A stretch of DNA of 64,000 nucleotides from assembly GCA_900315345.1 (NCBI GenBank), contig OMYP01000005.1, positions 1 to 64,000 on the forward strand. The letters are read 5' to 3'. Source of the DNA: an uncultured Selenomonadales bacterium (lineage in GTDB: Bacteria; Bacillota; Negativicutes; Acidaminococcales; Acidaminococcaceae). The translations under genes and the position numbers were made by a program. A model generated the notes under the pieces. The model was not told the origin of the DNA. It did no database searches and saw only the letters and a list, made by a program, of their open reading frames with translations. The number at the start of each line of letters is the position of its first letter. Within the stretch, counting starts at the first letter, position 1. This document shows positions 4,079 to 59,494 of this stretch, piece by piece.

Positions 4079-4255
4079 TTATCTGGATTTGCGTTTTCTG
4101 GCTGCTTCGGATTTTTTCTTACGCGCTACGCTGGGTTTTTCGTAATGTTCGCGTTTTCTTACTTCGGAAAGAATGCCGGCCTTCTGGGTCGCGCGTTTGA
4201 AACGGCGCAGCGCGCTCTCCAGGGACTCGCCTTTACCAACTTTAACTTCTGCCAT
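4079..4255 (-). CDS. rpsU: 30S ribosomal protein S21
   Basis: 58 residues beginning [20 protein letters not shown] and ending in a very basic [15 protein letters not shown] tail, which is diagnostic of S21. S21 joins the 30S platform near the anti-Shine-Dalgarno end of 16S rRNA. The longer frame reaching 4306 is rejected as a start because GGAGGGAGATC sits just before the ATG at 4255. yqeY follows directly. The 258 bases between this gene and the HIT gene (4256-4513) are AT-rich and show no clear gene. Confidence 0.96.
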
Positions 4256-39441: not shown

Positions 39442-42400
39442 TTATTTCTCAGCTGCCTGGCCGGGAGTTTCCGTCACGATCTTGCTGCCGTAAACGTCCC
39501 GGGTCTTGCCTTCCGGATACTTGGAGTCCGAATTGTTGACACGTACACGCTCGATCTTCTTGCGGTCGTTGTCCTGGCCAGAGATACGTTCTACATAGAT
39601 GCGGCCCAGTTCCGGCTCGAATTCTTTGGCGATCTGGGGATCCAGGGTTACGCCGCTGCGGACGATGCGGTCCAGCATAGCTGCGAATTCGTAGCGGGTC
39701 ATGGCACGGTCGCCCTTGAACAGGCCGTCAGGATAACCCTTCAGGGCTCCACGCTTCTGCAGGTCTTCTACGTACTCGTAAGCCCAGTGGTTTTCCGGAA
39801 CATCCGGGAACATGGCGGTCTCGATGCCATTGGCTGCTTCCATGCGGTCCATGCGGGCTGCCATCTGGGTCACCAGGCTGCGCAGGTCCTGAATCTCACG
39901 GGCCATGGCGGTGCGGCTCCGGGTGATCCGGTTCCGGGTGCCGTCCAAACCGAAGGTGATGCCTGCGTTCACCATGTTGTCCGCATTGCCAAAGGTACCG
40001 CCGATGCTGAACATCACGCTTTCATCCGGCCGGTAGAAGGCGCCTAACGCCGCTGCCGTTTCACCCCGGTAATTGCCTACGCCGGCCGCGAACTGCAGCT
40101 TGTCGTCCGGGTTGAAGTCCATGGGATGGAGGGCTGCCAACGCTGCCGCCCCGGCCAGGCCTTTCCGCATCCGGTTGTCCAGGTTGTTGATCTGGTTGTA
40201 GGTATTGTTGATCTGGCTACCCAGGTTCTCAATGTTCTGGGCATTGTTATTAACCTGATTGTCCAAGGCTGTAATGTTTTCCGCCGCCGTGTTGTCCTTC
40301 TTAATGTAATTGCCGTCGTTCTGCACGCGGGTTTCATTGTAAACCGTATCGCCGGTCACGATGCCCGTGTCGCCGGATGCGACTTTACCGTTGGCCTTTA
40401 CATCCACAGTGTAGATCTTTTTGTCATCGACATCTTCAGAGGCCACCGTCACATTATCAGAACCGGCTTTTACCTCCACATTGGAAACAGCTTTCACTTT
40501 AGATTTAATCGTATATTTCAGGCTACCATCCGCATTCTTGGTGGGTTCTACCTCGATGGTGTCATCGCCGGCTTCTACCGTGTTGCGGGTATCAACGATT
40601 TCTGCTGTTCCGGCGTTGTTGCCTACCAGGTCTTTCAGCGAAATCGTATATTTGGCGCCGTTTTCGGTTTCAGCTTTTTCGCCGGTCAGTACATACTGGG
40701 TGTCAGTATCCGTATCAACCACTTCCGCAGTCCCTGCTTCGTTACCCGCTTTATCTTTCAGGGAAATTGTGTAGGTCGTGCTTCCGTCTGCCGCTTTTTC
40801 ACCCTTCGTACCGGAAAGATCATACTGGGTGTCAGTATTTGTATCTACGATGATTGCCGTCCCTGCAGGTTTATCTTCGGAGTCTGTAAGCGTTACCGTG
40901 TATGTCGTGTTTCCTTTCCCGTCATCCACTCCGCCGTCGCCGGAAAGAGTATACGTACTCGCGTCAATTTTGTATGTCGTAGTATGGTTATTTGTATCTG
41001 AAGGTTTTATCGGATCATCGGAAACCGCAGGCGCCGGTGTTGTTCCTGCAGTTACCGCAGCAGTTCCGTCAGTTGCACCGGTTCCTGCCGTTGTTCCCGT
41101 TTCGCCGGCAGTCAGATCTGTCGTCTGCCCATTGGTTTTAGTAGTGGTTTCCGGCGTTGTCGGCGTAACCGTTATGTTTGTCCCTTCTGTCACAATCGCG
41201 TTCAGCGAATGAATGGTATATACCGCATGCCCGTTATCATCTGTGTTCTTGATTACCTCGACATTATCCCCGCCAACAATACTGAACTGTGCGGAATCCA
41301 GCGCAGAATACAGCTGGCTGCCGTTGATCGCGTCGGTAGAATCTTTTGAAACCAGACCTGCCGCTACGTTCTGAATACGGCGCGTTGCCTGAGTGCCGTC
41401 GACCTGTATTCCCCCGACGCTGACTACACCTGTCGGGTCGGCGCCGGCAAATTCATACTTTGTGCCGTTTATCGTCAGCGTGTTCTCCCGGGTCCCGTAC
41501 ACGGTATTCCCTGCAGTGCTGTCCCCGGCAGCCACATACCCCGCTCCCCTTCCAAGGAACACGGAATCCGCCAGGGTTTCGGCAACGTCGCTGCCTAAAA
41601 TGAAAGTATTGTCTGTAGCAACGGGTGCGTCTGCCGTACCGTTGCGGCTGCCGATGGCTACGCTGTTGTTGCCGGTCACTTTATTCCCCACGCCAATGGC
41701 GATACTTTCTTTCCCGGCTGCAGTATAATCCTTTTCGCCCACAACAGATCCCTTGCCCAGGGTCATGGAGTCCTCACCGTAAGCATAGGCCTGTTTTTCT
41801 ATCAGCTTTTCCGCATCGTCAAAATCCTTGTCACAGGTTGACAGGGAATCGTCCACGTTCTTTTTGTCGGCCGTGGCTTTGTCAAGCCTGGACTGAAGTT
41901 CTTCCTTTTCCCCTTCCGCCTCCTCGATCAGGGCCTGGTACCCGGCCTTTACGGTATCATTGGGAACCGGGTATTCCCCTGTCCCGTCAGCGTCCCTTTT
42001 CTTTTCCAGTATTGCAATATCTTTTTCCAGATCATCGATGGACTTTGTGAAGGAATTGATCCGAATCTGGAGATTATCCGATTCTGTCTGCAGCTCCTTC
42101 CGGTAATCCTCTTTTGACCCGTATTCAATGATAGAACGGGCTTTGGAAGCCTCTCCTACGCCTTCCACATGGATATAGGGGCTGTTGAAGAGCATTTCAC
42201 CGTCATTATTCTGGGATATGGCCATGTTCCGATCATCAATATTGATGGAAGCCGCCCGTTTCAGCTGGGCCACATTCACCGCATCGGTATCCGCACTGCC
42301 AGCCGCTACGCCGGTAATCTGCCGGGTAATACCGTTGGCCGCATCGCCTACGGAAACTGCGGCCATGGTGGAACGCCATACGGCGTCGTCTTTGACCGAA

Positions 42401-44088
42401 GGCTGCCCGGTATAAAGGTCGTACCCACTGACTGTGGCCGCAGGCGTGTTTGCGGCAGAACCGGATCCTAACGCCACAGAATCCGCTTCCGTAGCCTTTG
42501 CCCCCGCGCCGAAAGCAAAAGCATTGTCCTCGCTGACCCAGGCCCCTTTGCCGATAGCAGCCGAATTCCGGCCCTTATTATCCTCTAACTCCCCGACAAC
42601 GCCGCCCAGGGCGGCCAGCGCGTTTTCTGAATAAACGACAGATTTCATGCCGAAAGCTGTGGAATTATAACCGGCCAGATGGCCGTTATCCCGAATCATG
42701 TCATCCGCCTCGGCCCGGGTGGCAATCCCTTCCTTTATGATTTCTTTTTCACCGGTCGCAGCGTTTACGCCTTCAATGAAATACTGTTTTCCCTCCGGCT
42801 TATCCGAATCCCTCAATACTTCCACGTCATTATAGGTAACATTCCTACTGGCATCCTTCCAGGTGCCGCCATAAACGATGGAACCGTTGCCCCAGGCCGT
42901 GGAAGTTTCCGCCCGGGCTTCCGTATCGGTGCCCCAGGCCGTAGCGCCGCCGCCCACAGCCTGGGTACCGCTTCCGAAAGCCGTAGCATTCTCACCGGAG
43001 GCAGTGGTACTGTAGCCGAATGCAGTAGAATTCTTCCCGGAAGCAACCGTACTAATACCAAACGCGGTTGACCTGGAATCGGCAGCCTCTGTTTCCCACC
43101 CGAAAGCGGTTGAAGCTATACCTGTCGCCTTGGCCTTGTACCCGAATGCTGTAGCCTCTTCCCCGGAAGCCGTGGTCTGGTAACCGAATGCCGTCGCGTC
43201 CGTATTGGTCGCTTTCGTGCTATTACCAAACGCCAGGGAGTTTACCCCCCGGAGGCCGGTTGAAAAAACAGCAGACTGTTCAATCTGCTCCATCGTCTTA
43301 TCTTCCGTATGCCCATCCGGGAATGTCAGCCGGTAATACTCCTTCCCACCATAGGACACGGTTTTGAATCCGGCCACTTCCCTTCCCTGGTAGGATTCAA
43401 TCTCAACGATGGAACTATCCGACCCGTCATCACTTCCCGCCTGGGTAGCAGTGCCAAAGGCCGTGGCGTTGTAGGTCAACGCAGTCCCTCCCTGAAATGC
43501 AAAGGATCCCGTGCCGGAAGAAACAGACCGCCTTCCGAAAGCTACAGCGCTTTTTCCCAAGGCGGTCGCCCCATAACCGATGGCCACGCCCCGCTCGCCC
43601 CGGACTACAGTATTCCTGCCAAAAGCGGAAGCTCCGAACGCATAGGCCTTTGCACCGGCCCCGACTGCCGTTGCCTCCGAGCCGGATGCCTGGGCATAAA
43701 AGCCCAGGGCAACCGTCTTATCCGCGCTGGCGCTGGAACCGTCCCCGGCTGCCACAGAATTGCTTCCCGACGCCGAGCCTAATCGGATAGGCGTTACCGA
43801 AGTGACAACGCTAACGTCATTTACTACCCGGGTACTTGTTTGCACACCTGTGACCATAGTCCCGCTGGCGCCCCAGGCTACCGATCCGGGATAACTTACA
43901 AGGCCGGCCAGCAGCACAGCGCAAATGGCACGGGACAAACCGGCAAAACACGCTTTCCCATTTACCTGCGAATATGCCGCCAACCCATGGAAAGCATTTT
44001 TACATTTCCCGTTCCGTTTCGCCAATTCAGAAACTACCACGTAACAGTTGCGGGCCTTGCTCCAGATGATTTTATAAATTTTATTCAT
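39442..44088 (-). CDS. Trimeric autotransporter adhesin with C-terminal SLH domain, copy 2
   Basis: 1548 residues. ESPR signal (MNKIYKIIWSKARNCYVVVSE) and hydrophobic core to about residue 78. YadA-type head repeats (TAFGYxTxASGExA) fill ~90-560. A charged coiled coil (~680-790) is followed by stalk/neck modules, four ~33-residue DTDTQY...TYTISLKD repeats (~1090-1240), and the YadA anchor (LAGAAALAALHPMDFNPDDKLQ) at ~1315-1385. About 160 residues follow the barrel: a coiled coil (AMAREIQDLRSLVTQMAARM), an SLH domain (FPDVPENHWAYEYVEDLQKRG, GYPDGLFKGDRAMTRYEFA) and a polar tail. SLH domains of Negativicute outer-membrane proteins bind peptidoglycan, so this TAA should be wall-tethered. Its ATG overlaps the upstream gene's TGA. 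Confidence 0.92.
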   Translation of the reverse strand: MNKIYKIIWSKARNCYVVVSELAKRNGKCKNAFHGLAAYSQVNGKACFAGLSRAICAVLLAGLVSYPGSVAWGASGTMVTGVQTSTRVVNDVSVVTSVTPIRLGSASGSNSVAAGDGSSASADKTVALGFYAQASGSEATAVGAGAKAYAFGASAFGRNTVVRGERGVAIGYGATALGKSAVAFGRRSVSSGTGSFAFQGGTALTYNATAFGTATQAGSDDGSDSSIVEIESYQGREVAGFKTVSYGGKEYYRLTFPDGHTEDKTMEQIEQSAVFSTGLRGVNSLAFGNSTKATNTDATAFGYQTTASGEEATAFGYKAKATGIASTAFGWETEAADSRSTAFGISTVASGKNSTAFGYSTTASGENATAFGSGTQAVGGGATAWGTDTEARAETSTAWGNGSIVYGGTWKDASRNVTYNDVEVLRDSDKPEGKQYFIEGVNAATGEKEIIKEGIATRAEADDMIRDNGHLAGYNSTAFGMKSVVYSENALAALGGVVGELEDNKGRNSAAIGKGAWVSEDNAFAFGAGAKATEADSVALGSGSAANTPAATVSGYDLYTGQPSVKDDAVWRSTMAAVSVGDAANGITRQITGVAAGSADTDAVNVAQLKRAASINIDDRNMAISQNNDGEMLFNSPYIHVEGVGEASKARSIIEYGSKEDYRKELQTESDNLQIRINSFTKSIDDLEKDIAILEKKRDADGTGEYPVPNDTVKAGYQALIEEAEGEKEELQSRLDKATADKKNVDDSLSTCDKDFDDAEKLIEKQAYAYGEDSMTLGKGSVVGEKDYTAAGKESIAIGVGNKVTGNNSVAIGSRNGTADAPVATDNTFILGSDVAETLADSVFLGRGAGYVAAGDSTAGNTVYGTRENTLTINGTKYEFAGADPTGVVSVGGIQVDGTQATRRIQNVAAGLVSKDSTDAINGSQLYSALDSAQFSIVGGDNVEVIKNTDDNGHAVYTIHSLNAIVTEGTNITVTPTTPETTTKTNGQTTDLTAGETGTTAGTGATDGTAAVTAGTTPAPAVSDDPIKPSDTNNHTTTYKIDASTYTLSGDGGVDDGKGNTTYTVTLTDSEDKPAGTAIIVDTNTDTQYDLSGTKGEKAADGSTTYTISLKDKAGNEAGTAEVVDTDTDTQYVLTGEKAETENGAKYTISLKDLVGNNAGTAEIVDTRNTVEAGDDTIEVEPTKNADGSLKYTIKSKVKAVSNVEVKAGSDNVTVASEDVDDKKIYTVDVKANGKVASGDTGIVTGDTVYNETRVQNDGNYIKKDNTAAENITALDNQVNNNAQNIENLGSQINNTYNQINNLDNRMRKGLAGAAALAALHPMDFNPDDKLQFAAGVGNYRGETAAALGAFYRPDESVMFSIGGTFGNADNMVNAGITFGLDGTRNRITRSRTAMAREIQDLRSLVTQMAARMDRMEAANGIETAMFPDVPENHWAYEYVEDLQKRGALKGYPDGLFKGDRAMTRYEFAAMLDRIVRSGVTLDPQIAKEFEPELGRIYVERISGQDNDRKKIERVRVNNSDSKYPEGKTRDVYGSKIVTETPGQAAEK

Positions 44089-44543
44089 TTCTTATTCTCC
44101 TTTTCTTCCTTCGGCTGTTCCAACGGCGTTACCAGAAACTCTACAATTTTCGAGGACCCGTTCTCCTGGGCAAAGGTCACCACGATCCGCGCATACTTGT
44201 CTTTGCCTGCCGTGCCCACATAGACCAGGTCGTTGATGTTGGCGTAACCGCTTTTGGGGTTATACCGCTTGAAATAGGAAACAATGTTGACATCTTTAAT
44301 GTTCCCGATTTTTTCTTTTATGTTTTTCTTTAAATCGGCAAAACCGGCTGCCGGCACATTTTTCAGCAGGTCCGGGTGAAAGCTCGGGGTAACCTGTTCA
44401 TAGGTAACCGTATTTCCCGTAAGCGCCGCCACAAGCTGGTCCGCAGTTTTTTCCTCTGCGGACAGGCTCCTGGCGGCGCCTTCCGCAAAGCAGCTTACAT
44501 GGATGGCCACCGCCATTAACAATACCGACAATACTTTTTTCAT
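44085..44543 (-). CDS. Small secreted protein coupled to TAA copy 2
   Basis: About 152 residues from MKKVLSVLLMAVAIHVSCFA, a signal peptide probably cleaved after CFA (no proper lipobox before the Cys). The mature part has an Asp/Glu/Lys-rich alpha/beta pattern (VAALTGNTVTYEQVTPSFHPDLLKN, YANINDLVYVGTAGKDKYARIVVTF) and a basic-acidic tail. Not a family I can name. It ends in a four-base ATGA overlap with the TAA start, so the two are translated together; periplasmic helpers of TAAs (SadB-like) occupy similar positions in enterobacteria, but similarity is not visible. Start 44543 has GAGGAAGGG upstream. Confidence 0.8.
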   Translation of the reverse strand: MKKVLSVLLMAVAIHVSCFAEGAARSLSAEEKTADQLVAALTGNTVTYEQVTPSFHPDLLKNVPAAGFADLKKNIKEKIGNIKDVNIVSYFKRYNPKSGYANINDLVYVGTAGKDKYARIVVTFAQENGSSKIVEFLVTPLEQPKEEKENKK

Positions 44544-44622
44544 AACAATTCCCTTCCTCGTATTAAAATTCACGAAGCCGTCCGCCGCCTTCCTGTTAAT
44601 GAAATCTATTCCATCTCCCCCG

Positions 44623-45912
44623 TTACACGGAGGATTTTCCGGCCGTCTGCCCTTTCGGCGTTTCTTCCCACTTTGCCAGATTCCGCGCCGCGTTGTAATC
44701 CATGCTGATGAACTGGGCCCCGGTCTTTTTATCCTCTATCCCGTACCCGCAGCTCTTGCAGGTAAACCACCGCTTGTCTTCCGGCGCATCCTGGGTTGCG
44801 CCGCACCGGCTGCAGCGGTTCCGTATGTCCCTGTCCGGGCATTCCTGTACCGCGATTCCATAGGCTTCCGCCTTGTTCCTGATCTTTAACCGCAACGTGC
44901 TCTGGGGCCAGCGGGCCAGCAGTATATTGCCGCCTTCCGATTGCCCGGTGCTTCCCGCGTCCAGTTGGATTTTACCGCAGCGGTTTTTCCGGGCGATTTC
45001 CACCACCCACTTGGCGTACCTTTCGTTGGTCAGGTTGCGATAATTCCGTTCCTTCTCATACAAGGACTGCAGGGGTTTCAGGGCGCTTCCCCGCCCGTGC
45101 CCCTTGCGACCCGACCAGTTGTACTGCGCCCGGATATGCTTTTTGCGGGCCTGGTACTTTTCCTGATGGGCCAGCACCTCTTCCCCGCCAATGGCCCCCC
45201 GCTTCAGCGAATGGTTGAAAGCATAGGCCAGGGCGCACTGCATTCCGAAGGCCACCCCCATCACCAGTTCCGGGTCGAATTCTTCTTTTTCCCGGGCCGT
45301 TTCCGCTTCGTAGGGAATGCTGATATACCAGTCGCGCTTATTGCGGAATATGGAAGCGATGCCCCGCTTCAGCTTTCCTTCCGCAAGCTGATGCAAGGCC
45401 CGCCCGGCATTTTTGTCACGCCAGTTGCTGGCCAGCACCAGCTGGATCCGTCCCGGCATATTTTGTGCTTTCGCACCCTGCCGGGAAAGGAGCTGGACAT
45501 TTGCCACATAGTTGTCGGCATCGACCCGCCCTATGCTGTAACCGGCCACGGGTATGGGGATACTGCTGTCCTTCCGGAAACTGGGCAGGGCTTTCTCCGA
45601 GCGAAGTACGCCCGCCGCGTTGCGCATATAGAGCTTCCGGGCCCGGCCTTCCGCCGCACAGATGATTCCTGCCGGCACGTCCGGGTATTCCTCCGTAAGA
45701 CGGGGGTAACAGTACAGATGCCCCTGAGGATTCAGGTTCTCTGTCTCCAGGTTCAACGAACGCAGCAGGTGGTGGGTCATGCAGTAATTGGACATTCTGC
45801 AAACGTTATAGGAAAGGCCACGCAGCAGGTAGCCCAAATTTTCCCATGTTATTTTTTCGTCATAAGGACGAATAATTTTCAATACTAAACTTCGCTGCAT
45901 AAATGACTCCAA
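44623..45912 (-). CDS. Cas12f/TnpB-like protein with degenerate RuvC site (predicted nuclease-dead)
   Basis: 429 residues. Family evidence: FNHSLKRGAIGGEEV, YQARKKHIRAQ, GRKGHGRG, NERYAKWVVEIARKNRCGKIQ, a zinc finger (C367-C370, C385-C388) and MDYNAARNLAKW, as in Cas12f-related TnpB proteins. The RuvC-I Asp (normally GVDLG/GIDxG) is Ala221 (VMGVAFGM, codon GCC). The RuvC-II Glu (normally IQMEDL) is Asp318 (KIQLDAG). The RuvC-III Asp405 remains. DNA cleavage is therefore unlikely, while RNA-guided binding may persist, as in TldR repressors and dCas12f. There is no TnpA or CRISPR array nearby. It is upstream of and co-directional with the secreted protein-TAA pair, 79 bases from that gene's start. 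Function is inference. Confidence 0.8.
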   Translation of the reverse strand: MESFMQRSLVLKIIRPYDEKITWENLGYLLRGLSYNVCRMSNYCMTHHLLRSLNLETENLNPQGHLYCYPRLTEEYPDVPAGIICAAEGRARKLYMRNAAGVLRSEKALPSFRKDSSIPIPVAGYSIGRVDADNYVANVQLLSRQGAKAQNMPGRIQLVLASNWRDKNAGRALHQLAEGKLKRGIASIFRNKRDWYISIPYEAETAREKEEFDPELVMGVAFGMQCALAYAFNHSLKRGAIGGEEVLAHQEKYQARKKHIRAQYNWSGRKGHGRGSALKPLQSLYEKERNYRNLTNERYAKWVVEIARKNRCGKIQLDAGSTGQSEGGNILLARWPQSTLRLKIRNKAEAYGIAVQECPDRDIRNRCSRCGATQDAPEDKRWFTCKSCGYGIEDKKTGAQFISMDYNAARNLAKWEETPKGQTAGKSSV

Positions 45913-46165
45913 ATAACCTTATTTCAGCATTTCTGCCGTCAGGACTTACCGTTCTGCCTGAGCTTTTAGTGAGAGACTGCGGTCATACATCGCCGTGCCT
46001 TCTCCCCTTTGGGATAGCAAACGAACCCAAAGGCCTTACGCCTTTTTATTTAGAAAGGACCGACAGAATTACTCTGGGGATCCGATTTCCCAATCACAAG
46101 ACTTATGCAAGCGTTCACAAGGGAGACGCGGTATTAAATTACTGCTTCGCTCTCTGTGTCTTACT
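45913..46165 (-). other. Structured non-coding region upstream of the Cas12f-like gene
   Basis: No coding frame of note. It is much less AT-rich than 46170-46450 and has RNA-like structure: CCTTTGGG (46006-46013) pairs perfectly with CCCAAAGG (46026-46033), and GGCAGAA recurs nearby. On the minus strand it would be the leader of the Cas12f-like mRNA, and is one of two candidate places for a guide/scaffold RNA; the other is the gene's 3' end, where CCTCCG pairs with CGGGGG across the stop codon (about 44613-44630). Not proven. Confidence 0.35.
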
Positions 46166-46175
46166 GCTATGACTT

Positions 46176-46211
46176 TAATTGTTCATAAAAGTACGCATTT
46201 TTGAACAATTA
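46176..46211. promoter_or_regulatory. Inverted repeat between divergent genes
   Basis: TAATTGTTCA (46176-46185) and TGAACAATTA (46202-46211) are perfect 10-bp arms, with further AAAA/TTTT pairing in the 16-base spacer. It lies 4 bases before a strong rightward promoter and near the expected leftward start of the Cas12f-like unit. Possible operator or recombinase site. Confidence 0.55.
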
Positions 46212-46215
46212 TGAC

Positions 46216-46244
46216 TTGACTATAATTTTAAAAAAAGTTAATAT
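46216..46244 (+). promoter_or_regulatory. Near-consensus sigma-70 promoter
   Basis: TTGACT (46216-46221), 17 bases, TAATAT (46239-46244). Start expected near 46251, 250 bases before the recombinase ATG. Confidence 0.75.
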
Positions 46245-46325
46245 ATTTGTAATAAATCCGTATTATATTTTTAGAAATAGTAGCGCAATTTCAGATTAAA
46301 AATCAAAACAGCATTACAATCCAAT

Positions 46326-46375
46326 AAACAAGCGAACGTATTAAAAACTGTACTTTTAAAAACGTCCGCTTGTTT
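46326..46375 (+). terminator. Hairpin between the promoter and the recombinase (attenuator or small-RNA terminator)
   Basis: AAACAAGCGAACGT (46326-46339) pairs with ACGTCCGCTTGTTT (46362-46375) with one mismatch around a 22-base loop, followed by TATACTTTTTT. It could end a ~125-nt RNA started at 46251, or be a recombination site, since it is an inverted repeat upstream of a recombinase. Confidence 0.5.
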
Positions 46376-46498
46376 TATACTTTTTTATTGCATTTTTTCA
46401 AGTTTTTATCGCTTTAATAACGACATTTATTGTAAAATCTTTCTGCCAGGGGGCACCGTATGGGACGAAATATTGATTGGGAAAGGGGAAATCTACAT

Positions 46499-47096
46499 AT
46501 GGCAGAAAACGTATACGGCTATATCAGGGTATCGAGTAAAGAACAACACACGGATCGACAGCAGATTGCGTTGATCCAATACGGCATCAGCGAAAAGAAT
46601 CTGTTTTCCGACCGGCAGAGCGGCAAGGATTTCGACCGGCCCCAATACAAAAGGCTGTTGCGTAAATTGAAGCCATATGACTGTATCGTGGTCACCTCGC
46701 TGGACAGACTGGGCCGGAACTATGTGGAAATTCAGGAGCAGTGGAATATTATCACCCGCAAAAAAAAAAGCGGACATCGTCGTACTGGACATGCCCCTTC
46801 TGAACACCCGGAAAGGCCATAATAACCTGACAGGCAGGTTTTTGGCCGATATTGTGCTGCAAATATTAAGTTATGTAGCGGAAACCGAACGGCACAATAT
46901 AAGGACGCGACAGGCGGAAGGCATCGCCGCCGCGAAAGCCAGGGGGGTGAAGCTGGGCCGTCCTGAAAAATTCCTTCCGGACGGTTTTCCCCAGGTGGCT
47001 TCCCTGATACGGGAAGGCAAACTGTCGTACAGGGAGGCCGCCAGGCAATTACAGGTCAACCATTCATGGCTTTATAAAAAAATGAACAGCGGATGA
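46499..47096 (+). pseudogene. Serine recombinase (resolvase/invertase family), frameshifted at an A10 run
   Basis: The first frame codes MAENVYGYIRVSSKEQHTDRQ (catalytic Ser in YIRVS), KDFDRPQYKRLL and SLDRLGRNYVEI, all resolvase-domain motifs, then loses frame at ten A residues (46760-46769). The +1 frame continues with ADIVVLDMPLLNTR, QILSYVAETERHNIRTRQAEGIAAAKARGVKLGRP and a C-terminal helix-turn-helix (LSYREAARQLQVNHSWLYKKM). Nine A residues would give one ~199-residue Hin/TnpR-size protein. It may be a pseudogene, a phase-variable gene, or rescued by transcriptional slippage on the A run. Start 46499 follows AAGGGGAAATCTAC; an in-frame ATG at 46460 is possible. Confidence 0.85.
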
Positions 47097-48082: not shown

Positions 48083-48733
48083 TCAGGCGGTCTGCTTTTT
48101 CCTTCCCCGGGCAGGCTTCATGGCTTCCCGGTAGAACAGGGCTTTCCCACGGACCAGGGGGCCGCCGGGAACCAGTTTTCCCAGCTGTTCGGGATCCGGC
48201 AGGAACCACAGGTCCCACCGCAACTGGGGATCGCCGCTTCCGGGGCCGTAGCCGTCCCTGAAGGCGGCCTCGCAGTGGGTCATCACCGTGTCCCGGTCAA
48301 TGGGCAGCCCCAGTTCCTTGCAAAAGAGCGCTGTAAGTTTTGCCATTACATTGATCTGGTCTGGGGTGGGAGGCTCGGGTCCCAGCTTGATAATGGCCGC
48401 ATCCCCTTCCCCGTCGTATTCATCTGCGTACACTGCCTTCACCGTCCGGGGGTTGCCGTCCCCCGGCAGCCAGCAGCGCCCTTCCGCACCGCAGCACAGG
48501 GTGATGCCAATGGATCCGTCGTTGCGAAGCCAGGTATGGTTCTTCTGCTCCGTCAGCTCCCGGCAGTGGCGGTACGCCGTGCCGTCGCAATCAATAGAGA
48601 TATGGTAGTCGTCGTAGGGCTGGCCGTAATGCCCGCCCGTCCAGTGCAGGTAGATGTGATTGATCTTCCCTTTGGCCGCCCGGGCCATTACCTGCAGTTC
48701 TTTTTCGGTTACGGTAACACAATTTTCATTCAT
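48083..48733 (-). CDS. N-acetylmuramoyl-L-alanine amidase-like protein
   Basis: About 216 residues. KINHIYLHWTGGHYGQPYDDYHISIDCDGTAY has the first zinc His of amidase_2/PGRP enzymes and the usual HWT context; NDGSIGITLCCG, a central PTPDQINVMAKLTALFCKEL and TVMTHCEAAFRDGYGPGSGDPQLRWDL (second zinc His and the DP.LRWD end) follow. It should cleave the MurNAc-L-Ala bond. There is no signal peptide, as in phage endolysins needing a holin. GAGGAGAAACGAAC precedes ATG 48733; the frame reaches 48754. Between it and DUF1659 are 175 bases without a gene. Confidence 0.85.
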   Translation of the reverse strand: MNENCVTVTEKELQVMARAAKGKINHIYLHWTGGHYGQPYDDYHISIDCDGTAYRHCRELTEQKNHTWLRNDGSIGITLCCGAEGRCWLPGDGNPRTVKAVYADEYDGEGDAAIIKLGPEPPTPDQINVMAKLTALFCKELGLPIDRDTVMTHCEAAFRDGYGPGSGDPQLRWDLWFLPDPEQLGKLVPGGPLVRGKALFYREAMKPARGRKKQTA

Positions 48734-48925
48734 GTTCGTTTCTCCTCGTTTCATATTTTCGGGGCCTTTCGGTCGTTCCGGAACCGCCGGTTAAATTACC
48801 CCCTCACTTGTATAGTCGGGCGACCTCCGAAAAACGAAAGTAAAATTTTTGGAAATCCGTTGTTTGTTACACATTTTTTATTTTTTAATTGCGTTTTAAA
48901 TACATTTTGTAAACAAGATTTAGCA

Positions 48926-48976
48926 AAAAAATACGTCCCGGTGATCTTCTCCTGAAGATTGTCGGGACGTATTTTT
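48926..48976. terminator. Long hairpin terminator between amidase and XRE genes
   Basis: AAAAAATACGTCCCG pairs with CGGGACGTATTTTT, and inside it GATCTTC pairs with GAAGAT, giving a ~24-bp interrupted stem. Serves the XRE gene on the minus strand. The rest of 48755-49025 has no evident gene. Confidence 0.8.
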
Positions 48977-49025
48977 GATTTTTGCTTCGTTATGTGTTAT
49001 ACGGCGCGGGTAAGGCATGCCCTTT

Positions 49026-49379
49026 CTATCGGCCATCCGTATTCCGGAGGGCCTTGCGGACTGCTTTTGTCAGGGCCTTCCTGATAATGCCCTGCATTTT
49101 CGGATTCTCCAGCAGGGCGGCCTCCGAACTTTCGCAGATCCCCAGGTCGGAGGTTTTTTCCCGGTCGTACGTTACCTGATTCCGGGGTGAGATCAGCCGG
49201 AGCCCAAACACGGCTTCTATGCCTTTCGCATGTTCCATGGAGGGTTCCGCAATCCCGTGTTCCCATCGGTAGACGGTGATCTTGCTCACCCCTACCCCGT
49301 CGGCAAAAGCCTGTTGCGTGACATGATTCGCTTCCCTGAACTCCCGGATCAGCTGAGACGTGGATTTACAATCTTTCAT
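49026..49379 (-). CDS. XRE family transcriptional regulator
   Basis: About 117 residues. N-terminal Cro/C1 helix-turn-helix: LIREFREANHVTQQAFADGVGVSKITVYRWEHGIAEPSMEHAKGIEAVFG. A short basic C-terminal tail (IIRKALTKAVRKALRN) follows, with no obvious sensor domain. Divergent from the sigma factor gene across a 422-base AT-rich gap, so it may control both directions, like a phage repressor. The start at 49379 follows GGAGG; an ATG seven codons upstream overlaps that site. Confidence 0.88.
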   Translation of the reverse strand: MKDCKSTSQLIREFREANHVTQQAFADGVGVSKITVYRWEHGIAEPSMEHAKGIEAVFGLRLISPRNQVTYDREKTSDLGICESSEAALLENPKMQGIIRKALTKAVRKALRNTDGR

Positions 49380-49801
49380 TTGGATTCCCCTCCATTTCAT
49401 TTTTTGCGTACAATCCTCATTTTCACTCCATTATAAATACTCAAATGTGTTTTAAAGATTGTATGCTTCAAAAGTATATCACACTATTTTTGATTATACA
49501 ACTAAAAATTTTTGATTTTATGCCACATTGCTTTTTGTATAAAGAATTTTGTATACAGTATTCTTTTTATATTTTTTTTGCATCCCACGGTTTCACACAG
49601 GTTACTTTTTTCCCGGAAAATATTACATTCCTGTAGTCAAAAACCGGGAAAAGTTTCATAAACGAAAGCTTTTCACCCCAAAAAGGTTTCATTAATGCAA
49701 CTTTTAGTATACATATGTGAAATCTATGCAGGCATTCTCTTTTCTGCTACCATATGGTCATGCGCACCATGAACCATATTACGAAAGGACGGAACATACA
49801 A
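49380..49801. other. AT-rich divergent regulatory region
   Basis: No ORF. Contains imperfect inverted repeats, for example GTATA...TATAC around 49471-49497 and the GTATACATATGTG stretch near 49709-49721, and long A/T runs. Likely holds operators and promoters for the divergent XRE and sigma genes; no consensus promoter could be chosen. Confidence 0.4.
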
Positions 49802-50458
49802 ATGCTGATACCTGTAAAAACAGATATTCCCCAGACAGAGACACCCATATCCTGGAACCGGCTGTTCCGGGAAGCGAAAAAAGGCGATGACGGGGCAGCC
49901 CGGGATTTCTTCGCCGCCGCCCAGCCATTTATAGACCGCCTTTGCAAGAACGCCTTTTTCCGTGACAGGCTGGGCAGGGACGAAATCCAAAGCGTGGCTT
50001 TCCTGGCCCTGGTGCGCATGCTGCAGAAGCTTGACGCCCTGCCGGAGGACAGTAAGGTTCCCTACCTGCTGCGGCGGGTCCTCCGCTTTACCCTCATCGA
50101 CTGCGTCCGGACCTTGGATGTGCTGGAAGAATATGAGCAGCCTTCCGTGGTGTTCTTCACCCCTATGGATCCGGACGGGGACGGCGGGACAGACGACATG
50201 GCGATGGATTTTCCCGCCGACGACAGGGATGAGCCGGAAAACCGGTGCCTGCGGCAGGAGCTGGGCCATGAGGTCCGCAGCGCCATAGAACGCCTGTCCC
50301 CAAGGGAGCAGGCGGTGATAAAAGCCCACTTTTACGACGGCAAGGATATCCGCACCATTGCGGCAGAGCTGCGCTGCTCCCCCCAGCATGTACGGGCCAG
50401 CAAGCGCAATGCTTTGACCCGGCTGCGCCGCATGTTAAAACGCCGGGTCGACGCGTAG
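49802..50458 (+). CDS. Sigma-70 family RNA polymerase sigma factor
   Basis: About 218 residues. Region 2-like part: NRLFREAKKGDDGAARDFFAAAQPFIDRLCKNAFF, EIQSVAFLALVRMLQKLD, VPYLLRRVLRFTLIDCVRTLD. Region 4: AIERLSPREQAVIKAHFYDGKDIRTIAAELRCSPQHVRASKRNALTRLRRML, a clear -35 binding helix-turn-helix. An acidic linker (PDGDGGTDDMAMDFPADDRDE) separates them. Start at 49802 is the best guess (GAAAGGA 12 bases upstream); the frame opens at 49754. It heads the phage-like replication block, probably as a late or middle gene activator. Targets unknown. Confidence 0.88.
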   Translation: MLIPVKTDIPQTETPISWNRLFREAKKGDDGAARDFFAAAQPFIDRLCKNAFFRDRLGRDEIQSVAFLALVRMLQKLDALPEDSKVPYLLRRVLRFTLIDCVRTLDVLEEYEQPSVVFFTPMDPDGDGGTDDMAMDFPADDRDEPENRCLRQELGHEVRSAIERLSPREQAVIKAHFYDGKDIRTIAAELRCSPQHVRASKRNALTRLRRMLKRRVDA

Positions 50459-50479
50459 ACGGGGAAAGGAAGGATGACA

Positions 50480-51907
50480 ATGAACGATACGGAAACAATC
50501 GGCAGGTCATTGGACTGCAAGACCCTCATATCCATACTGAACAGGGGGGCGGAAAGCGCCCTCCTATTGGGGGCATGGTGCGCTATGGAGGCCATTGCGG
50601 AGGAAGATCCGGAGGGCTGCGTGCGCCTGAATCCGGATGTACCCATGGACGCGTCGGCCCTGGGGGATTTTTTACATTGCCCGGTGGAAACAGTGGAAAA
50701 CACCATCGGCCTGTTCCGGCAATTGCGGAAGCTTACACTGGAGGACGGCATCATCCGGATCAACGCCTGCGCAGCCCGGAAGAAAACAGCCGCCTCCCGG
50801 GAACGGAAAAGGGCGCAGGCCCGGCAGCGGCAGGCCCGGTACCGGGAAAAACAGAAGGAACAGGAGGGCTTTGCCGGGCAAAAGGCAGCGGCCCAAAGGG
50901 AAGCCGCCGCGACGGAAAGCGAAGATTTTTCGAAAGGCACAGCCCCAAAAGAAGTTCCCCCGGAAAACGGGAGTTCAGGGGACGGCCCCTATTGGGAAAG
51001 CGTTACCGTAACGCAGCCCGTAACGGTACCTGTAACGCAATCCGTAACGCAGCCTGTAACGCTGTTTGGAGAAGAGCCCCAAAGCCCCGCTGCCAGCGGA
51101 TCCGAAGAGGTTGGAACCACAGCCTGTAACACCCCGGTAACGGAACCGGAGGCAACAGAGAAAAGAAAGAACCAAAGAAAAGAGACAAGTCTATTTACGA
51201 ATCCTGATACCAGTCCGGCAAGTCCCAGAAACGGGCAGGCAGGCGACCCGGCGTCTGACGGAGCAGCCGTTGGCCTTCCGGGGGGTGAGAAGCTGCCGGA
51301 GGTCGAAGGGATCTGTCTTCCCTTTGTGCCGGAGGAAGCGGACGCCAACCGTTTCCGGGAAGATCTGCCAGCTTCCTGCGAAAGGATATTGGAGGCATGG
51401 AACCGGCTGGGCCTGAAGCCCTGCCGGGACCCGGGGCCTTCCCTGCTGGAAAAGATGAAGGAACTGCTGGCCCGCTACAGTACGGAAACCATTGTGGAAG
51501 CCATCGCCGGTATTGCCGGCTGCCCCTTCCTGCTGGGGAAAACCGCAAGGAGCCGCTGGAGCATTTCCCTGGGCTGGCTGTTAAAGCCGGATAACTTCGC
51601 CAAAGTCCTTTCGGGAAAATACCGGACTTTCCAGAAGACCGGACAGTATGAGGTCGGCAGGGACTACATGGACAGGACGCTCTGCCGGGAGGGAGAAGCC
51701 TTCCCCGGCTGGCCCGCCGGCAACGAAAACATTATCCCCTCGGGCGGCTGTCTGGCCGGCAACGAAGGCATTGCTTCCCCGGGAGGCTGTCTGCCCGGTA
51801 ACGGAAGCATTATCCCCCCGGACAGGTCTCAGGAGGCCCGGGACCTCCCCTGCCACAGGAACCCTGTTCTGGAAGAATCGGCCCGTCTGTTAGGACTGCC
51901 CTATTAA
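50480..51907 (+). CDS. Phage replisome organiser-like protein
   Basis: About 475 residues. The N-terminal ~100 residues (ESALLLGAWCAMEAIAEEDPEGCVRL, DFLHCPVETVENTIGLFRQLRKLTLEDGIIRI) look like the winged-helix domain of phage replisome organisers. A basic region (ASRERKRAQARQRQARYREKQ), a low-complexity linker with VTQPVT repeats, and a DnaD-like C-terminal part (ERILEAWNRLGLKPCRDPGP, SRWSISLGWLLKPDNFAKVLSGKYRTF) follow. These proteins bind the origin and recruit the helicase loader, here the next gene. Iteron-like DNA repeats lie inside the gene. A 39-bp repeat (GNEGIASPGGCL type) occurs near the end. Start 50480 follows AAGGAAGG. Confidence 0.75.
   Translation: MNDTETIGRSLDCKTLISILNRGAESALLLGAWCAMEAIAEEDPEGCVRLNPDVPMDASALGDFLHCPVETVENTIGLFRQLRKLTLEDGIIRINACAARKKTAASRERKRAQARQRQARYREKQKEQEGFAGQKAAAQREAAATESEDFSKGTAPKEVPPENGSSGDGPYWESVTVTQPVTVPVTQSVTQPVTLFGEEPQSPAASGSEEVGTTACNTPVTEPEATEKRKNQRKETSLFTNPDTSPASPRNGQAGDPASDGAAVGLPGGEKLPEVEGICLPFVPEEADANRFREDLPASCERILEAWNRLGLKPCRDPGPSLLEKMKELLARYSTETIVEAIAGIAGCPFLLGKTARSRWSISLGWLLKPDNFAKVLSGKYRTFQKTGQYEVGRDYMDRTLCREGEAFPGWPAGNENIIPSGGCLAGNEGIASPGGCLPGNGSIIPPDRSQEARDLPCHRNPVLEESARLLGLPY
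51001..51061 (+). other. Iteron array, candidate phage-type replication origin
   Basis: GTAACG occurs five times at exactly 12-bp spacing (51008, 51020, 51032, 51044, 51056), preceded by the palindrome CGTTAC-C-GTAACG (51001-51013). A further GTAACG lies at 51136. About 100 bases on, 51158-51195 is a purine/A-rich stretch. Iterons inside the initiator gene followed by an A-rich tract is the lambda ori design. The repeat also codes a VTQP-type peptide repeat, so protein selection could explain it. Confidence 0.5.
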
Positions 51908-51919
51908 AGGAGGAACAAG

Positions 51920-52657
51920 ATGAAAAAGAAAGAAAGCGTAGTGGCCGTCATCCGGCGGGAGAAGCGCCGCCGGGCCCTGGGTACAGATTTAATGTGCGAC
52001 TGGGATTTCGCCCGGGACAACGGGGAGAACCCGCAGCTCACCCGGCTGGCCCAAAACTATGTGACTCATTTTGAAAATTTTCGGAGCCGGGGGGCCGGGC
52101 TGTTCCTGTACGGAGGTCCAGGTTCCGGCAAAAGTTTTACGGCGGCTGCCATCGTCAACGAGCTGACGGACCGGGGCTACCGCTGCCTGTTCACCAGCCT
52201 GCTTACCGTCCTCAGCGACCTGTCCGGCCTGGGTTACGGCAACCGCCGCTGTTTCCTGTCCCAGATCTGTGACCGGGACCTGCTGGTGCTGGACGACTTC
52301 GGCACGGAAGCGGAGACAAGTTTCAGCAGCAACGTTTTGCTGCAGATCATAAACCTGTGCCGCCTGAAATCCGTCCCCATCATCGTAACCACCCCCTATC
52401 ACCCGGACGCCCTGACCCAGGGAGGGGCCGCCTCCCGCCGGACCTTTGCGGTACACCGCCTGTTAAGCCGCTGCACCCCGGTGAACGTGATCATTCCCCG
52501 GCCCCGCAGCAGCCGCAACTTCAAACAGAAGCAGCAGGGGGACACCCTGTTAAAAGAGCCGGCGCAACAGGAGGCCCAGCCGAAAGGGCTGCCTGTCCCG
52601 GAGCAGGAGGATCAGGCGAAAGAACAGCCGGTGCAGCAGAAGTTGCTTTTACATTAG
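51920..52657 (+). CDS. DnaC/DnaI-like helicase loader ATPase
   Basis: 245 residues. AAA+ core: FLYGGPGSGKSFTAAAIVNELTDRGYRCLFTSLLTVL (Walker A), RDLLVLDDFGTEAETSFSSNVLLQII (Walker B and arginine region), VPIIVTTPYHPDAL (sensor 1), then LLSRCTPVNVI. It loads the hexameric helicase at the origin. The C-terminal ~40 residues are Gln/Glu/Pro-rich and disordered. AAGGAGG precedes the ATG, 12 bases after the previous stop, and the helicase gene follows after 25 bases. Confidence 0.92.
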   Translation: MKKKESVVAVIRREKRRRALGTDLMCDWDFARDNGENPQLTRLAQNYVTHFENFRSRGAGLFLYGGPGSGKSFTAAAIVNELTDRGYRCLFTSLLTVLSDLSGLGYGNRRCFLSQICDRDLLVLDDFGTEAETSFSSNVLLQIINLCRLKSVPIIVTTPYHPDALTQGGAASRRTFAVHRLLSRCTPVNVIIPRPRSSRNFKQKQQGDTLLKEPAQQEAQPKGLPVPEQEDQAKEQPVQQKLLLH

Positions 52658-52682
52658 AAAAAAGCGAAAGGAGAGCATACAT

Positions 52683-54059
52683 ATGCAGGAACGAGTCATT
52701 CCCCAGAACATTACGGCGGAGCAGAATGTGCTCAGCGCCATGCTGATCGATACCCACGCCGCGGACATTGTGGCGGAAAGATTGCAGCCGGAGGATTTCT
52801 ACCGTCCCTCCCACCAGATCATCTGCCGGGCCATCTTCCGTCTCCGCAGCCGGAACGAGCCGGTAGACCTGGTCACCGTTACGGAAGAGCTGAAAAAAGA
52901 GAACCGGCTGGAGGACGTTGGGGACATCAGTTACCTGACCCTGCTGGCCAACGTTGCCCCTACGGCGGCCAACGTGAAGTACCACGCCCGGATCGTGGAG
53001 GAAAAATCCCTGCTGCGGCAGATGGTGGAAAGCGGCACCGCCATCGCCGCCATGGGCTACGAGGGCGGCGAAGAAGACGTACAGGACCTGATCGACAGGG
53101 CAGAAAAAAATCTGCTGCGCCTTTCCTGCCGGAAAAGCGCAACAGATTTTGTACCGATCCAGGATATTGTATCCGCCGCCATGGACCGGCTGGGCAGCCT
53201 GGTAGAAAACAGCAGGGTGGTGACGGGCCTGTCCACCGGTTTCACCGATCTGGATTCCATTACCGCGGGCCTCCACCCTTCGGACTTTATCATTGTGGCG
53301 GCACGGCCCTCCATGGGCAAGACAGCCCTGGCCCTGAACATTGCGGAAAACGTGGCCCTGCGGGGGACCCGGGAAGGGGAACCTCCCAGGCGGGTGGCTT
53401 TCTTCAGCCTGGAGATGAGCCGGGACCAGCTGGCCCAGCGGATGATCTGTACGGAGGCGGATGTAGGAGACCGGGAGCTTCGCCCTGCCGAACCGGAAGA
53501 CGAAAACGAAAAAAGGGAAGTACTGGACCGTCTCTGGACCGCTTCGGACAATCTGGCCGCCTCCAACATATTCATTGACGACACCCCGGGTCTTTCCATC
53601 CGGGAGCTGCGCTCCAAAGCCCGGCGGCTGAAAGCGGCCGGGGGGCTGGACCTGATCGTCATCGACTACCTGCAGCTGATGCAGGTCTCCTTGGGACGTT
53701 CCGGTTCCGAGAACCGCCAGCACGAGGTATCGGAAATCAGCCGGAGCCTGAAGGCGCTGGCCCGGGAACTGGAGGCACCGGTGCTGGCCCTGTCCCAGTT
53801 AAGCCGCAGCGTGGAAAACCGCCAGGTGAAGCGGCCCATGCTCAGCGACCTGCGGGAGTCCGGCTCTCTGGAGCAGGACGCGGACATCGTCATGTTCCTG
53901 TACCGGGAAGACTACTACAAAGCCGCGGAGGAAGAGCCTACCCACCTGACAGAGCTCATTGTCGCCAAGCACCGCAACGGCCCCACCGGAAAGATCGACC
54001 TGTTCTTCCGGAAAGACTGCACACGGTTCATCAGCCTGAACGAAAAAGATGCGGTGTAA
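52683..54059 (+). CDS. DnaB-family replicative helicase
   Basis: 458 residues. N-terminal DnaB domain (IPQNITAEQNVLSAMLIDTHAADIVAERLQPEDFYRPSHQII) then the RecA-like helicase domain: IIVAARPSMGKTALALNIAENVA (Walker A), FFSLEMSRDQLAQRMI, LIVIDYLQLM (Walker B), LSQLSRSVENRQVKRPMLSDLRESGSLEQDADIVMFLYR. It unwinds DNA at forks. The partner loader and organiser genes suggest it belongs to a phage or plasmid replicon rather than being the chromosomal copy, but this cannot be decided here. Confidence 0.93.
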   Translation: MQERVIPQNITAEQNVLSAMLIDTHAADIVAERLQPEDFYRPSHQIICRAIFRLRSRNEPVDLVTVTEELKKENRLEDVGDISYLTLLANVAPTAANVKYHARIVEEKSLLRQMVESGTAIAAMGYEGGEEDVQDLIDRAEKNLLRLSCRKSATDFVPIQDIVSAAMDRLGSLVENSRVVTGLSTGFTDLDSITAGLHPSDFIIVAARPSMGKTALALNIAENVALRGTREGEPPRRVAFFSLEMSRDQLAQRMICTEADVGDRELRPAEPEDENEKREVLDRLWTASDNLAASNIFIDDTPGLSIRELRSKARRLKAAGGLDLIVIDYLQLMQVSLGRSGSENRQHEVSEISRSLKALARELEAPVLALSQLSRSVENRQVKRPMLSDLRESGSLEQDADIVMFLYREDYYKAAEEEPTHLTELIVAKHRNGPTGKIDLFFRKDCTRFISLNEKDAV

Positions 54060-54218: not shown

Positions 54219-57200
54219 CTATTTTCCTACCTTTGCTTCCAGTCGCGCCAGCGCTTCTTTTAATGCTGCAATTTCTGCATCCTGCGCCGCAATCTTTTCA
54301 TCCTGCGCCGCGCTTTCTTTCTGATGTGCTTCTTTCAATGCTGCAATTTCCGCATCCTGCGCCGCAATCTTCCGCGCCATGGTCGCCTTGCTTGCACCTA
54401 ATCCCTTGCCCTTATCCAGCGCAAAGATGACGCCTGCGTTGACCATGTTCTCCCCATTGCCCATGCTGCCGCCGATGCTGAACATCAGGTTATCCTTGGG
54501 CTGATAGAACAGGCCCATGGCCATGGCATTGGCGTTCCGGTAATTACCGTAGCCCAGGCCCATGCCAAACTTGCCGTCCATATCCAGCGGGTGCAGCGCC
54601 GCCAGGGCCGCCGCCCCTGCGCCTACCTTGTTCACCCTGTTATCCAGCTTGTTGATGCGGTTGTTCAGGTACACGTCATTATTATACGTATTCTGACCGG
54701 CGGCCTGCAGCTGGCCGATGGTGGCTGCGTCAGTAGCTTCCGTGCCGGGGGCAACGTGCTTGATCTGGCGCTCACCGCCAGAGGAGCCCACCGAAACCGC
54801 ATCTGCTTCTGCAGTGGAATTATTGCCAAGCACCACGGCGTTGTCAACATTGTTTACCTGCACATTATTTCCCAGCACAATATTATTATTACCTTTTAAA
54901 GTATGCCCGGTCCCAATGGCAATGTTCTGATCTCCGTCAACAGTGTTATCAAAACCGAGGGCAACGGAGCGCGTGCCGCTTTTAATCTCGCTGCCCTTGC
55001 CTATAGCAATCTTCGTAGTATTCTCCCCTAACCTCAGGCTTCCCTCTTCACCGGGTTTGCCGTTCAGGTACTCGTATACGGTAGCGCCCCTGACAAATTC
55101 GTCCGCATGGTCTCCCTGTTCCTTTACCTCGCCATTCTGACCAGCCAACGCCTCAAGTTTCTCATCAACGGCAACAATGCCTTCAATACTTATCCCCGTT
55201 CCAACCAGCAGCATTTCTACGCCGGTCATAGCCGTATCTGCAGTCTTCTGGGCAGTGACAATATTGTCTGCATTCGTTGCTATATCCTGTGTGTTTTGGG
55301 TAATATTTTCAGTATTCGACGCAATATTCTGTGTGTTTTTATCAATATTCCGGGCATTTTCTGTTATCATTTCTGCATTCGAAGCAACTGCTTCCGCAGT
55401 CACCCTGGCCTGATCGTCCAATGCCGTCAGGTTTTCCGCTACGGTATTGTCCATCTTTACATATTCGCCATCCTCTGTCAGGCGAACTTCTTCATAAACC
55501 GTAGCGCCGGTCACCAGTTTTTCGTTTCCGCTTTCCACCTCGCCCGTACCCAATGCACTGCCCCAGGCTGCAGAGTTATCTGCGGTTGAGCCGTTAGCAT
55601 CTTTTGCGTTTTTCCCAACATTAGATGCATCTGTATTCGCTTTCTGATCCAAAACATCCTTGACAAGTCCGGTCTGGTCCTGTAATGCCTTATCCATCAG
55701 GGTCAGGTTTTCCGCAATATTTTTATCGGCTTTTATGATAAGACCGTCTTCAGCGATCGTACCGATGCGGTTGGCCAGCGCAGTCTCCTTCGCATCAACC
55801 TGCGTTTTTGTATAGGCGTCCCGGATTCCGTAGCCTTCCAGCGTGTCCGACTTGTCCACCTTATCCTTTACCGCATCTGCAATCGCGTTGTCCGTCGCCG
55901 TCTTCGTATAGGCATCCCGGATCCCGTAGCCTTCCAGCGTCGTTGCCTTGTCCGCCTTATTCTTTACTGCGGTATCTAACGCGGTAAGATTCGCCGCAGT
56001 TGTATTCTTTTCCTTAATATGTGTCCCGTCAACCGGACGCACTTCTTCGTAAACGGTAGAGCCCCTCAGAAATTCGTCTGCCCCGGGTTCTCCTTCGGGC
56101 GCAACCGTTCCATCCATTGCTTTTATGGTTTCAATATCCGCAGTTCGTGCATTGATTTCTTCCGACAGATCAATAATTGCATTAAGTTCAATTCCGGAAA
56201 CCTTGGCGATCAACTGCAGATCGGTTTTCGTTTCCTCGGCAGTTTTCTTTACATCGTCCAATGACGTATCTAACGCAGTCAGGTTTTCCGAAACCGTATT
56301 ACCGGCTTTAACAACAGCGCCGTTTTTACTTATCGTCCCGATGCGGTTGGACAATGCGGTCTCCTTCGCATCGACCTGGGTTTTTGTATATGCGTCCGTA
56401 ATGCTGTAGCCTTTCAGCGTCGTTGCCTTATCTGCTTTACCGCCCACAGCTTTAGTGATGGCACTGTCCGTCGCTGCCTTCGTGTATGCGTCCGTAATAC
56501 CGTAGCCTTTCAGCGTAGTAGCCCGGTCTGCCTTACCTGCTACTGCCGTAGTAATAGTGCTGTTGGTTTCCTCTTTTGTATAGGCATCCGTAATGCCGTA
56601 GCCTTTCAGCGTGGTGGCCTTGTCAGCTTTTTTCGTTGCCGCCGTATCAATGGCAGACTGCGTCTCGTTTTTGGTAAAGGCATCCGTAATACCGTAGCCT
56701 TCCAGCGTGGTGGCCTTGTCGGCTTTTTTCGCTACCGCACTGTATACCGTGCCGCCGGTTACAATACCGGTGTTGCCGGCCTCCACGGCCCCGTTCTTCG
56801 TCACCTGAATCTTACCGCCAGCATCCAGGGCCAGGTCGCTGCCTGTGTTCACCTGCAGTTTGCCGTCTTTATCGAAAACCAGGCCGCTGCCGTTTTTCAC
56901 GCTGACCGTGTTTTTATCGGAAATATCAATACCGTCGCCTGCCGTATATGTGGCACCACCACCGCCAGCTCCTATAGCATCTTTCAGGGCTTTTAACTGG
57001 GCTACGTTAACCGCGTCCGTGTCGTATGTGCCTGCCGCCACGCCTGTAATCTGGCGGGTAACGGTAGCGGTATTGCTGTCAGTGGCGGACGCGCCCACAG
57101 AAATAGCATTGGCCGTAGCGATCCAGGCCGCGCCGGCAGCAACGGTTCCGTCCGGACGGTAGCCCGCTACGCCTGCCCGCCGGTTAGCCACAGAGCCGTT

Positions 57201-57749: not shown

Positions 57750-57769
57750 CTTTGCGTCCCCCCGTTTTA

Positions 57770-59467: not shown

Positions 59468-59494
59468 AATGAACCATCCTTTTATACAAATTTA

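Follow-up and report, generated by a model that had tools for sequence, protein, structure and literature searches.

The window analysed here, a stretch of 64,000 nucleotides on contig OMYP01000005.1 (assembly GCA_900315345.1), comes from an uncultured Selenomonadales bacterium of the family Acidaminococcaceae, the genome of which (G000) is 2.31 Mb in size and consists of 32 contigs. On its minus strand, the window encodes a nuclease-dead Cas12f1-like protein (dCas12f) upstream of a gene for a trimeric autotransporter adhesin (TAA). An initial annotation, made from the DNA letters, had described an apparently nuclease-dead Cas12f/TnpB-like protein and proposed it as an RNA-guided regulator of surface adhesins. 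The locus is composed of the following features:

39442–44088, minus strand: the operon's own TAA, with ESPR, YadA head, stalk, anchor and SLH regions
44085–44573, minus strand: small predicted secreted protein of 162 residues, between dCas12f and the TAA; no Pfam family
44623–45900 (ATG start; 45912 with the TTG start), minus strand: dCas12f, assigned by PF07282 and by its match to solved Cas12f1; RuvC-I Asp to Ala, RuvC-II Glu to Asp
45906–45920, minus strand: putative guide AAGGTTATTTGGAGT, directly after the scaffold and overlapping the Shine-Dalgarno sequence of dCas12f; its equivalents in genomes G004 and G006 match TAA codons 6–10 exactly
45917–46056, minus strand: conserved leader RNA, a guide RNA scaffold resembling trans-activating CRISPR RNA (tracrRNA), assigned by a covariance model match and by similarity to the tracrRNA of active CRISPR-Cas12f1 loci
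46181–46363: invertible promoter segment between inverted sites 46181–46206 and 46338–46363, in opposite orientation between homologous loci with breakpoints at the sites
46216–46244, plus strand: predicted promoter TTGACT-17-TAATAT within the segment, a consensus match only
46460–47096, plus strand: serine recombinase (invertase) of the Hin/resolvase type, with a frameshift at an A10 run

The open reading frame (ORF) of dCas12f had been given as 44623–45912. It is real, but it lies on the minus strand, and its ATG start at 45900 is better placed than the TTG at 45912, because one GGAG Shine-Dalgarno sequence shortly precedes the ATG. The protein scores above the Pfam cut-off for PF07282 (Cas12f1-like_TNB), and the profile of its clade matches the solved Cas12f1 enzymes 9i8y (E 6e-56) and 7wju (AsCas12f1-type, E 1e-48), which bears out the assignment to the Cas12f/TnpB-like proteins; the match to 9n9c ('Nuclease-deactivated Cas12f') is weak (E 5.5e-13). 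Alignment with 11 intact homologues, in all of which the RuvC D/E/D set is complete, agrees with the residues named initially: the RuvC-I Asp is replaced by Ala221 and the RuvC-II Glu by Asp318, the RuvC-III Asp is retained as Asp405 (217, 314 and 401, respectively, counted from the ATG), and the C..C/C..C zinc finger is complete. The corresponding motifs are VMGVAFG, IQLDAG and SMDYNAA, compared to, for example, IMGIDLG, IQMEDL and ADYNAA in the intact homologues; none of the catalytic residues is displaced elsewhere. AlphaFold prediction on four sequences gave a mean pLDDT of 46, and the model was not used.

dCas12f is not confined to the window. G000 contains a second full-length copy, 69% identical, and one remnant; among 59 genomes of the family, we found two copies in G004, one copy in G006, one remnant in G010 and, in G069, an intact but more distant homologue. 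Scanning of genome contigs with a single protein query gave no match, whereas an alignment query recovered Succiniclasticum ruminis DSM 9236 (G004) and a goat-reticulum metagenome-assembled genome (G006). A wider alignment detected the sixth copy (L123, 72% identical) in viral contigs of IMG/VR, and the plasmid and phage collections yielded distant homologues only (<30% identity). In total, six full-length copies are available, from Succiniclasticum genomes and one IMG/VR contig. The RuvC-I Asp is absent from all six, each of which is linked to a TAA; Ala stands in its place five times and Val once, and it is therefore the loss, not the replacing residue, that is conserved. The RuvC-II position is Asp in five copies and Glu in the remaining one. 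Pairwise dN/dS values are 0.09–0.21 where they could be estimated, with synonymous sites near saturation in most pairs; dCas12f is under purifying selection.

The nuclease-dead copies group as one clade. Because their nearest intact relatives include proteins encoded beside CRISPR arrays (L027, of the same family, with an array at 3709–4079; L029; L117), the clade most likely derives from type V-F CRISPR-Cas12f1, and the kinship with TnpB and TldR suggested earlier gives way to this descent. No relative above 60% identity has an intact site or lies inside an insertion sequence, and, as noted initially, the locus has no CRISPR array (43.0–47.5 kb of the window). At L117, an active CRISPR-Cas12f1 locus of G606, the last spacer adjoins a degenerate repeat and is identical over 39 nucleotides to a stretch upstream of cas12f (1242–1280 and 3424–3462); the upstream stretch resembles a ribosome-binding site with start codon. 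This spacer is possibly a self-regulating guide, similar to an intermediate toward an exapted system.

Between the invertible segment and the dCas12f gene lies the leader, which is ∼140 nucleotides in length and has a mean column identity of 82–85% across five copies. The covariance model built from these five leaders recovers only the same five in 14 genomes of the genus, and it finds the held-out L123 leader at E 1.5e-40. Run unfiltered on four loci of intact relatives, it gives the L027 tracrRNA region as best match (E 0.015) and that of L029 as third (E 0.24); the alignment spans the first hairpin. The core AAAG..GAGAAG-N-CTCRCYAA is present in all five leaders and in both tracrRNA regions, and is absent from 2.5 Mb of simulated sequence. 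The scaffold end GCTGAAAT is similar to the repeat ends ATTGAAGA and ATTGAAGC of active arrays. An associated RNA is thus predicted at the locus. Rfam scanning of the window and the leader gave no family at threshold, the weak matches being chance ones; another leader stretch, GGGTTCGTTTGCTATC, resembles the region upstream of one TAA with two mismatches and was judged a chance similarity.

In three copies, the 15–18 nucleotides that follow the scaffold are identical to TAA codons 6–10, which encode part of the conserved ESPR (V-I-W-S-K). In S. ruminis, the guide of copy a (AGAGTTATTTGGAGTAAA) matches the TAA at C16:1327 of G004 without mismatch along 18 nucleotides; that of copy b (AAGGTAATTTGGAGT) does so along 15 nucleotides with the TAA at C31:60451 of the same genome; and for the G006 guide, identity to the TAA at C79:3889 extends over 18 nucleotides. 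Three positions distinguish the two S. ruminis guides, each of which equals a different TAA. ATTTAC directly precedes all three exact targets; from these matches we infer the ends of the guide and a target-adjacent motif in the ATTTAC flank. The operon's own TAA has four to five mismatches to the guide, the other own-genome TAAs tested in G004 and G006 have two to five, and the leader DNA itself lacks the ATTTAC flank.

A simple calculation puts the expected number of exact 15-mer matches in a genome of 2.5 Mb at ∼0.005. With one mismatch allowed, a degenerate guide pattern, searched in 14 genomes, found nothing but leaders and TAA starts in the three dCas12f-bearing ones, and the reversed control pattern found nothing in these three; a match in G008, which has no dCas12f, is not TAA-start-like. 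When a 15-nucleotide frame was slid along 460 nucleotides per locus, zero-mismatch matches to own TAAs occurred at the guide position only. Scanning the window alone with the guide showed no excess over chance; the excess is at TAA starts across genomes. The guide reads in the same sense as the TAA message; it could therefore not act as antisense RNA and would have to act on DNA, at the template strand, and a transcription roadblock would be in keeping with a target inside the ORF. The search of guide candidates against TAA promoters, recommended with the initial annotation, led to exact TAA matches, but within the ORF rather than in a promoter. The targeted TAAs possess their own promoter-like sequences, and no such invertase was found beside them within the stretches examined.

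The serine recombinase, of the resolvase/invertase type, is located across an intergenic region of ∼500–750 bp in every copy whose contig extends that far. It is divergent from dCas12f and intact in L011, L014 and L123. This recombinase, the invertible promoter segment and the leader RNA with its guide had gone unremarked in the initial annotation. Between the loci L012 and L015, the ∼170-bp segment is 92% identical on opposite strands while the left flank is on the same strand; between L012 and L014a, the segment is inverse and both flanks are direct. The breakpoints coincide with sites containing the core AAAGTACACTTTT. Each segment contains a promoter-like TTGAC(G/T)-17-TATTAT or TAATAT, which is directed at dCas12f in L014a, L014b and L015 and away from it in the window, L011 and L012. 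A serine invertase beside a promoter segment with flanking inverted sites is the arrangement of a Hin-type inverton; the switch probably governs expression of the operon, and we take the neighbouring invertase as the presumable enzyme. The L012 (9725–10151) and L015 (8831–8960) loci hold dCas12f remnants in which the leader is deleted and the recombinase, switch and TAA are kept, indicating that the module can decay into a plain phase-variable TAA.

We consider it rather probable that these elements form an RNA-guided adhesin switch, in which the invertase flips the promoter and dCas12f with its guide RNA represses an alternative TAA. The Hin-like invertase would flip the ∼170-bp segment; in the ON orientation, the promoter would transcribe one operon containing the guide RNA leader, dCas12f and one adhesin, TAA-A. 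dCas12f would bind the leader RNA, whose 3′ 15–18 nucleotides would serve as guide. Next to ATTTAC, at codons 6–10 of TAA-B, an alternative adhesin gene, the complex would pair with the template strand. Since its RuvC site is dead, the complex would remain on the target and block early elongation, and the cell would display TAA-A instead of TAA-B. The mismatches would let the operon's own TAA escape, and the missing flank would spare the leader DNA. Because the guide is also the ribosome-binding site in this proposal, each transcript would be either message or guide. Both RNA binding by dCas12f and repression rather than activation are what we infer from the sequences. The analysis thus lends support to the RNA-guided adhesin regulator envisaged initially, through the RuvC-I loss and the downstream TAA in all six copies, the candidate guide RNA and the three exact TAA matches. 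An adhesin gene is indeed the predicted target; it is not the adjacent TAA but another one, in trans.

Several observations weigh against this proposal. The leader–tracrRNA similarity is weak by E-value, and the core motif was picked after the leaders and tracrRNA regions had been seen, which makes its test post hoc. The six copies share a common ancestry. Ungapped inverted-repeat scores at single loci were no better than those of shuffles, so the case for inversion rests on cross-locus alignments; both orientations were observed between loci and species, and switching within one genome was not seen. The window's own copy fits least well. Both G000 copies carry AAGGTTATTTGGAGT, and neither the window guide nor that of L011 has an exact target in its own genome; the best G000 TAA, at C12:85165 (ATTTAC followed by AAGTTAATTTGGAGT), is mismatched at guide positions 4 and 6. 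In TldR, a 6-nucleotide seed has been mapped (PMC13418256); strong repression of this TAA is doubtful because both mismatches fall within such a seed. The near matches of the window guide that were examined elsewhere in G000 were rejected: they lack ATTTAC and, C12:85165 excepted, do not lie at TAA starts. Perhaps the true target is missing from the draft assembly or has been lost. In addition, the window promoter is directed away from dCas12f (OFF), and the invertase is frameshifted at the A10 run (46760–46769), which is A9 in the near-identical L123 copy; the frameshift could reflect slipped-strand phase variation, decay or assembly error. The window locus is probably at rest or has partly decayed, and S. 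ruminis provides the cleaner example.

The identity between guide and TAA could instead be left over from a copying event: a TAA start, by duplication or gene conversion, would have given rise to the sequence ahead of dCas12f that includes its ribosome-binding site, while dCas12f acts elsewhere or autoregulates through its own leader. The matching stretch takes in the Shine-Dalgarno sequence, all copies adjoin TAAs, and two guides lack an exact target of their own, all of which suits this explanation. Yet the match starts exactly at the scaffold end, each guide equals one distant TAA and not its neighbour, the guides of S. ruminis copies a and b differ and equal different TAAs, and the stretch is retained although synonymous sites are near saturation; we regard this explanation as unlikely. 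An invertase switch that controls the TAA alone, with dCas12f serving another target such as phage DNA, would account for the remnant loci, where invertase and TAA persist in the absence of dCas12f, and two copies do adjoin phage genes; as the guide identities are with TAA starts rather than with other genes, we see only a very slim chance for it.

Nuclease-dead Cas12f proteins are known as sigma-factor partners in Bacteroidota, and the complex might likewise activate or position transcription. 9n9c does match the clade, if weakly; against activation, neither L011 nor L014 has a sigma gene, that of the window (49754–50458) belongs to a phage-type replication block, and the target lies past the start codon, within the coding sequence of genes with promoter-like sequences of their own. 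This makes activation very unlikely. We find it highly improbable that the locus is a functionless leftover of CRISPR or of an IS607-type element. Degraded copies exist (G000:C12 and G010), and the adjacent serine recombinase recalls IS607; but six full-length copies with purifying selection and a conserved leader speak for function, the CRISPR array is missing, and, unlike IS607 TnpA, the recombinase has its catalytic (Resolvase) domain N-terminal and its helix-turn-helix C-terminal, with no MerR match.

By analogy, the proposed circuit is most likely of the Salmonella hin-fljBA type, where an invertase flips the promoter for one surface protein and for the repressor of the alternative (PMC13418256, PMC9368917). 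The circuit logic is the same; FljA is a protein repressor, whereas the specificity here would come from a guide RNA. The closest published analogue appears to be the csrA-TldR-hin control of flagellin. The csrA-TldR loci of gut bacteria (Oscillibacter, Flavonifractor) contain hin genes, promoter inversions of ∼120 bp and guides against alternative flagellin ORFs (PMC13418256). Like these loci and phage TldR-FliC (PMC13418256), the present system ties a nuclease-dead RNA-guided protein to a surface-protein gene, with intra-ORF guides against alternative alleles; like csrA-TldR-hin, it combines a hin-type gene with upstream promoter inversion. Different from TldR, which is TnpB-derived with its guide RNA downstream of the gene, it is Cas12f1-derived with a tracrRNA-like guide RNA in the 5′ leader; its predicted targets are TAAs and not flagellins, it has no csrA, and its hosts are Acidaminococcaceae.

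With type V-F CRISPR-Cas12f1, the system shares the protein fold (as judged by sequence), the zinc finger and the tracrRNA-like RNA. The active enzymes have RuvC D-E-D and an adjacent array; here the RuvC-I Asp is lost and, in place of an array, the guide is fused to the scaffold. The dCas12f-sigma E system of Bacteroidota is likewise an exapted nuclease-dead Cas12f, but a distant one, as the weaker match to 9n9c than to active Cas12f1 indicates; it has a linked extracytoplasmic function sigma factor and targets upstream of the gene. UpaE of uropathogenic Escherichia coli is a phase-variable autotransporter adhesin under an invertible element (PMC6083910); the invertible control is alike, with tyrosine recombinases and no RNA-guided protein there. 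No earlier description that combines TAAs with Cas12f or TnpB was retrieved when we searched openly accessible papers.

On balance, and with some reserve, we favour the broader view that a Cas12f1 effector was domesticated, independently of TldR, into inverton-controlled, RNA-guided adhesin exclusion with a 5′-leader single-guide RNA, possibly as prophage cargo. If this is true, RNA-guided nucleases became antigen-switching repressors at least twice, from TnpB (TldR, flagellin) and from CRISPR-Cas12f1 (adhesins). The intermediate steps would be at hand in the active CRISPR-Cas12f1 of the same family, the fused tracrRNA-guide leader and the decaying copies, and the cultured rumen bacterium S. 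ruminis DSM 9236 would offer testable guide-target pairs. The system would also be a source of a compact natural scaffold for single-guide RNAs, and it might explain how one adhesin out of about ten is selected for display; the window genome has 10 TAA starts.

The surroundings of the locus vary between copies. Both the secreted-protein ORF and the SLH-bearing TAA run in the same direction as dCas12f, as first described. Each of the six full-length copies has an ESPR-start TAA gene downstream of it, on the same strand; the small ORF has a 152-residue counterpart in the matching place in L123, whereas L011 and L014 lack it. An XRE-family helix-turn-helix gene (L014 15792–16064) is located between switch and leader in S. 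ruminis copy b only.

Phage genes adjoin some copies. The L123 contig reads tail genes, lysis gene, invertase, switch, guide RNA, dCas12f, ORF and complete TAA; in L123 (1–4325) and L139, this sixth copy directly follows the tail and lysis cassette of a prophage, where lysogenic-conversion genes are usually located. In the window, phage-type endolysin, repressor, sigma factor, DnaD, DnaC and DnaB genes are found beyond the invertase (48083–54059), perhaps a prophage remnant, although no capsid gene was found among the window proteins tested; the dcw cluster (mraZ) lies on the other side of the locus. From this gene order, carriage by prophages is plausible, and the module may spread as lysogenic-conversion cargo.

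Within 54219–63961, the window holds a further TAA beside a TpsB-like transporter (57770–59467) and a 1488-residue ORF with no Pfam match. In S. ruminis, two TAAs of one region (L014 9742–14208 and 18318–19949) share a 2.2-kb stretch of 87% identity, which suggests recombination between adhesins.
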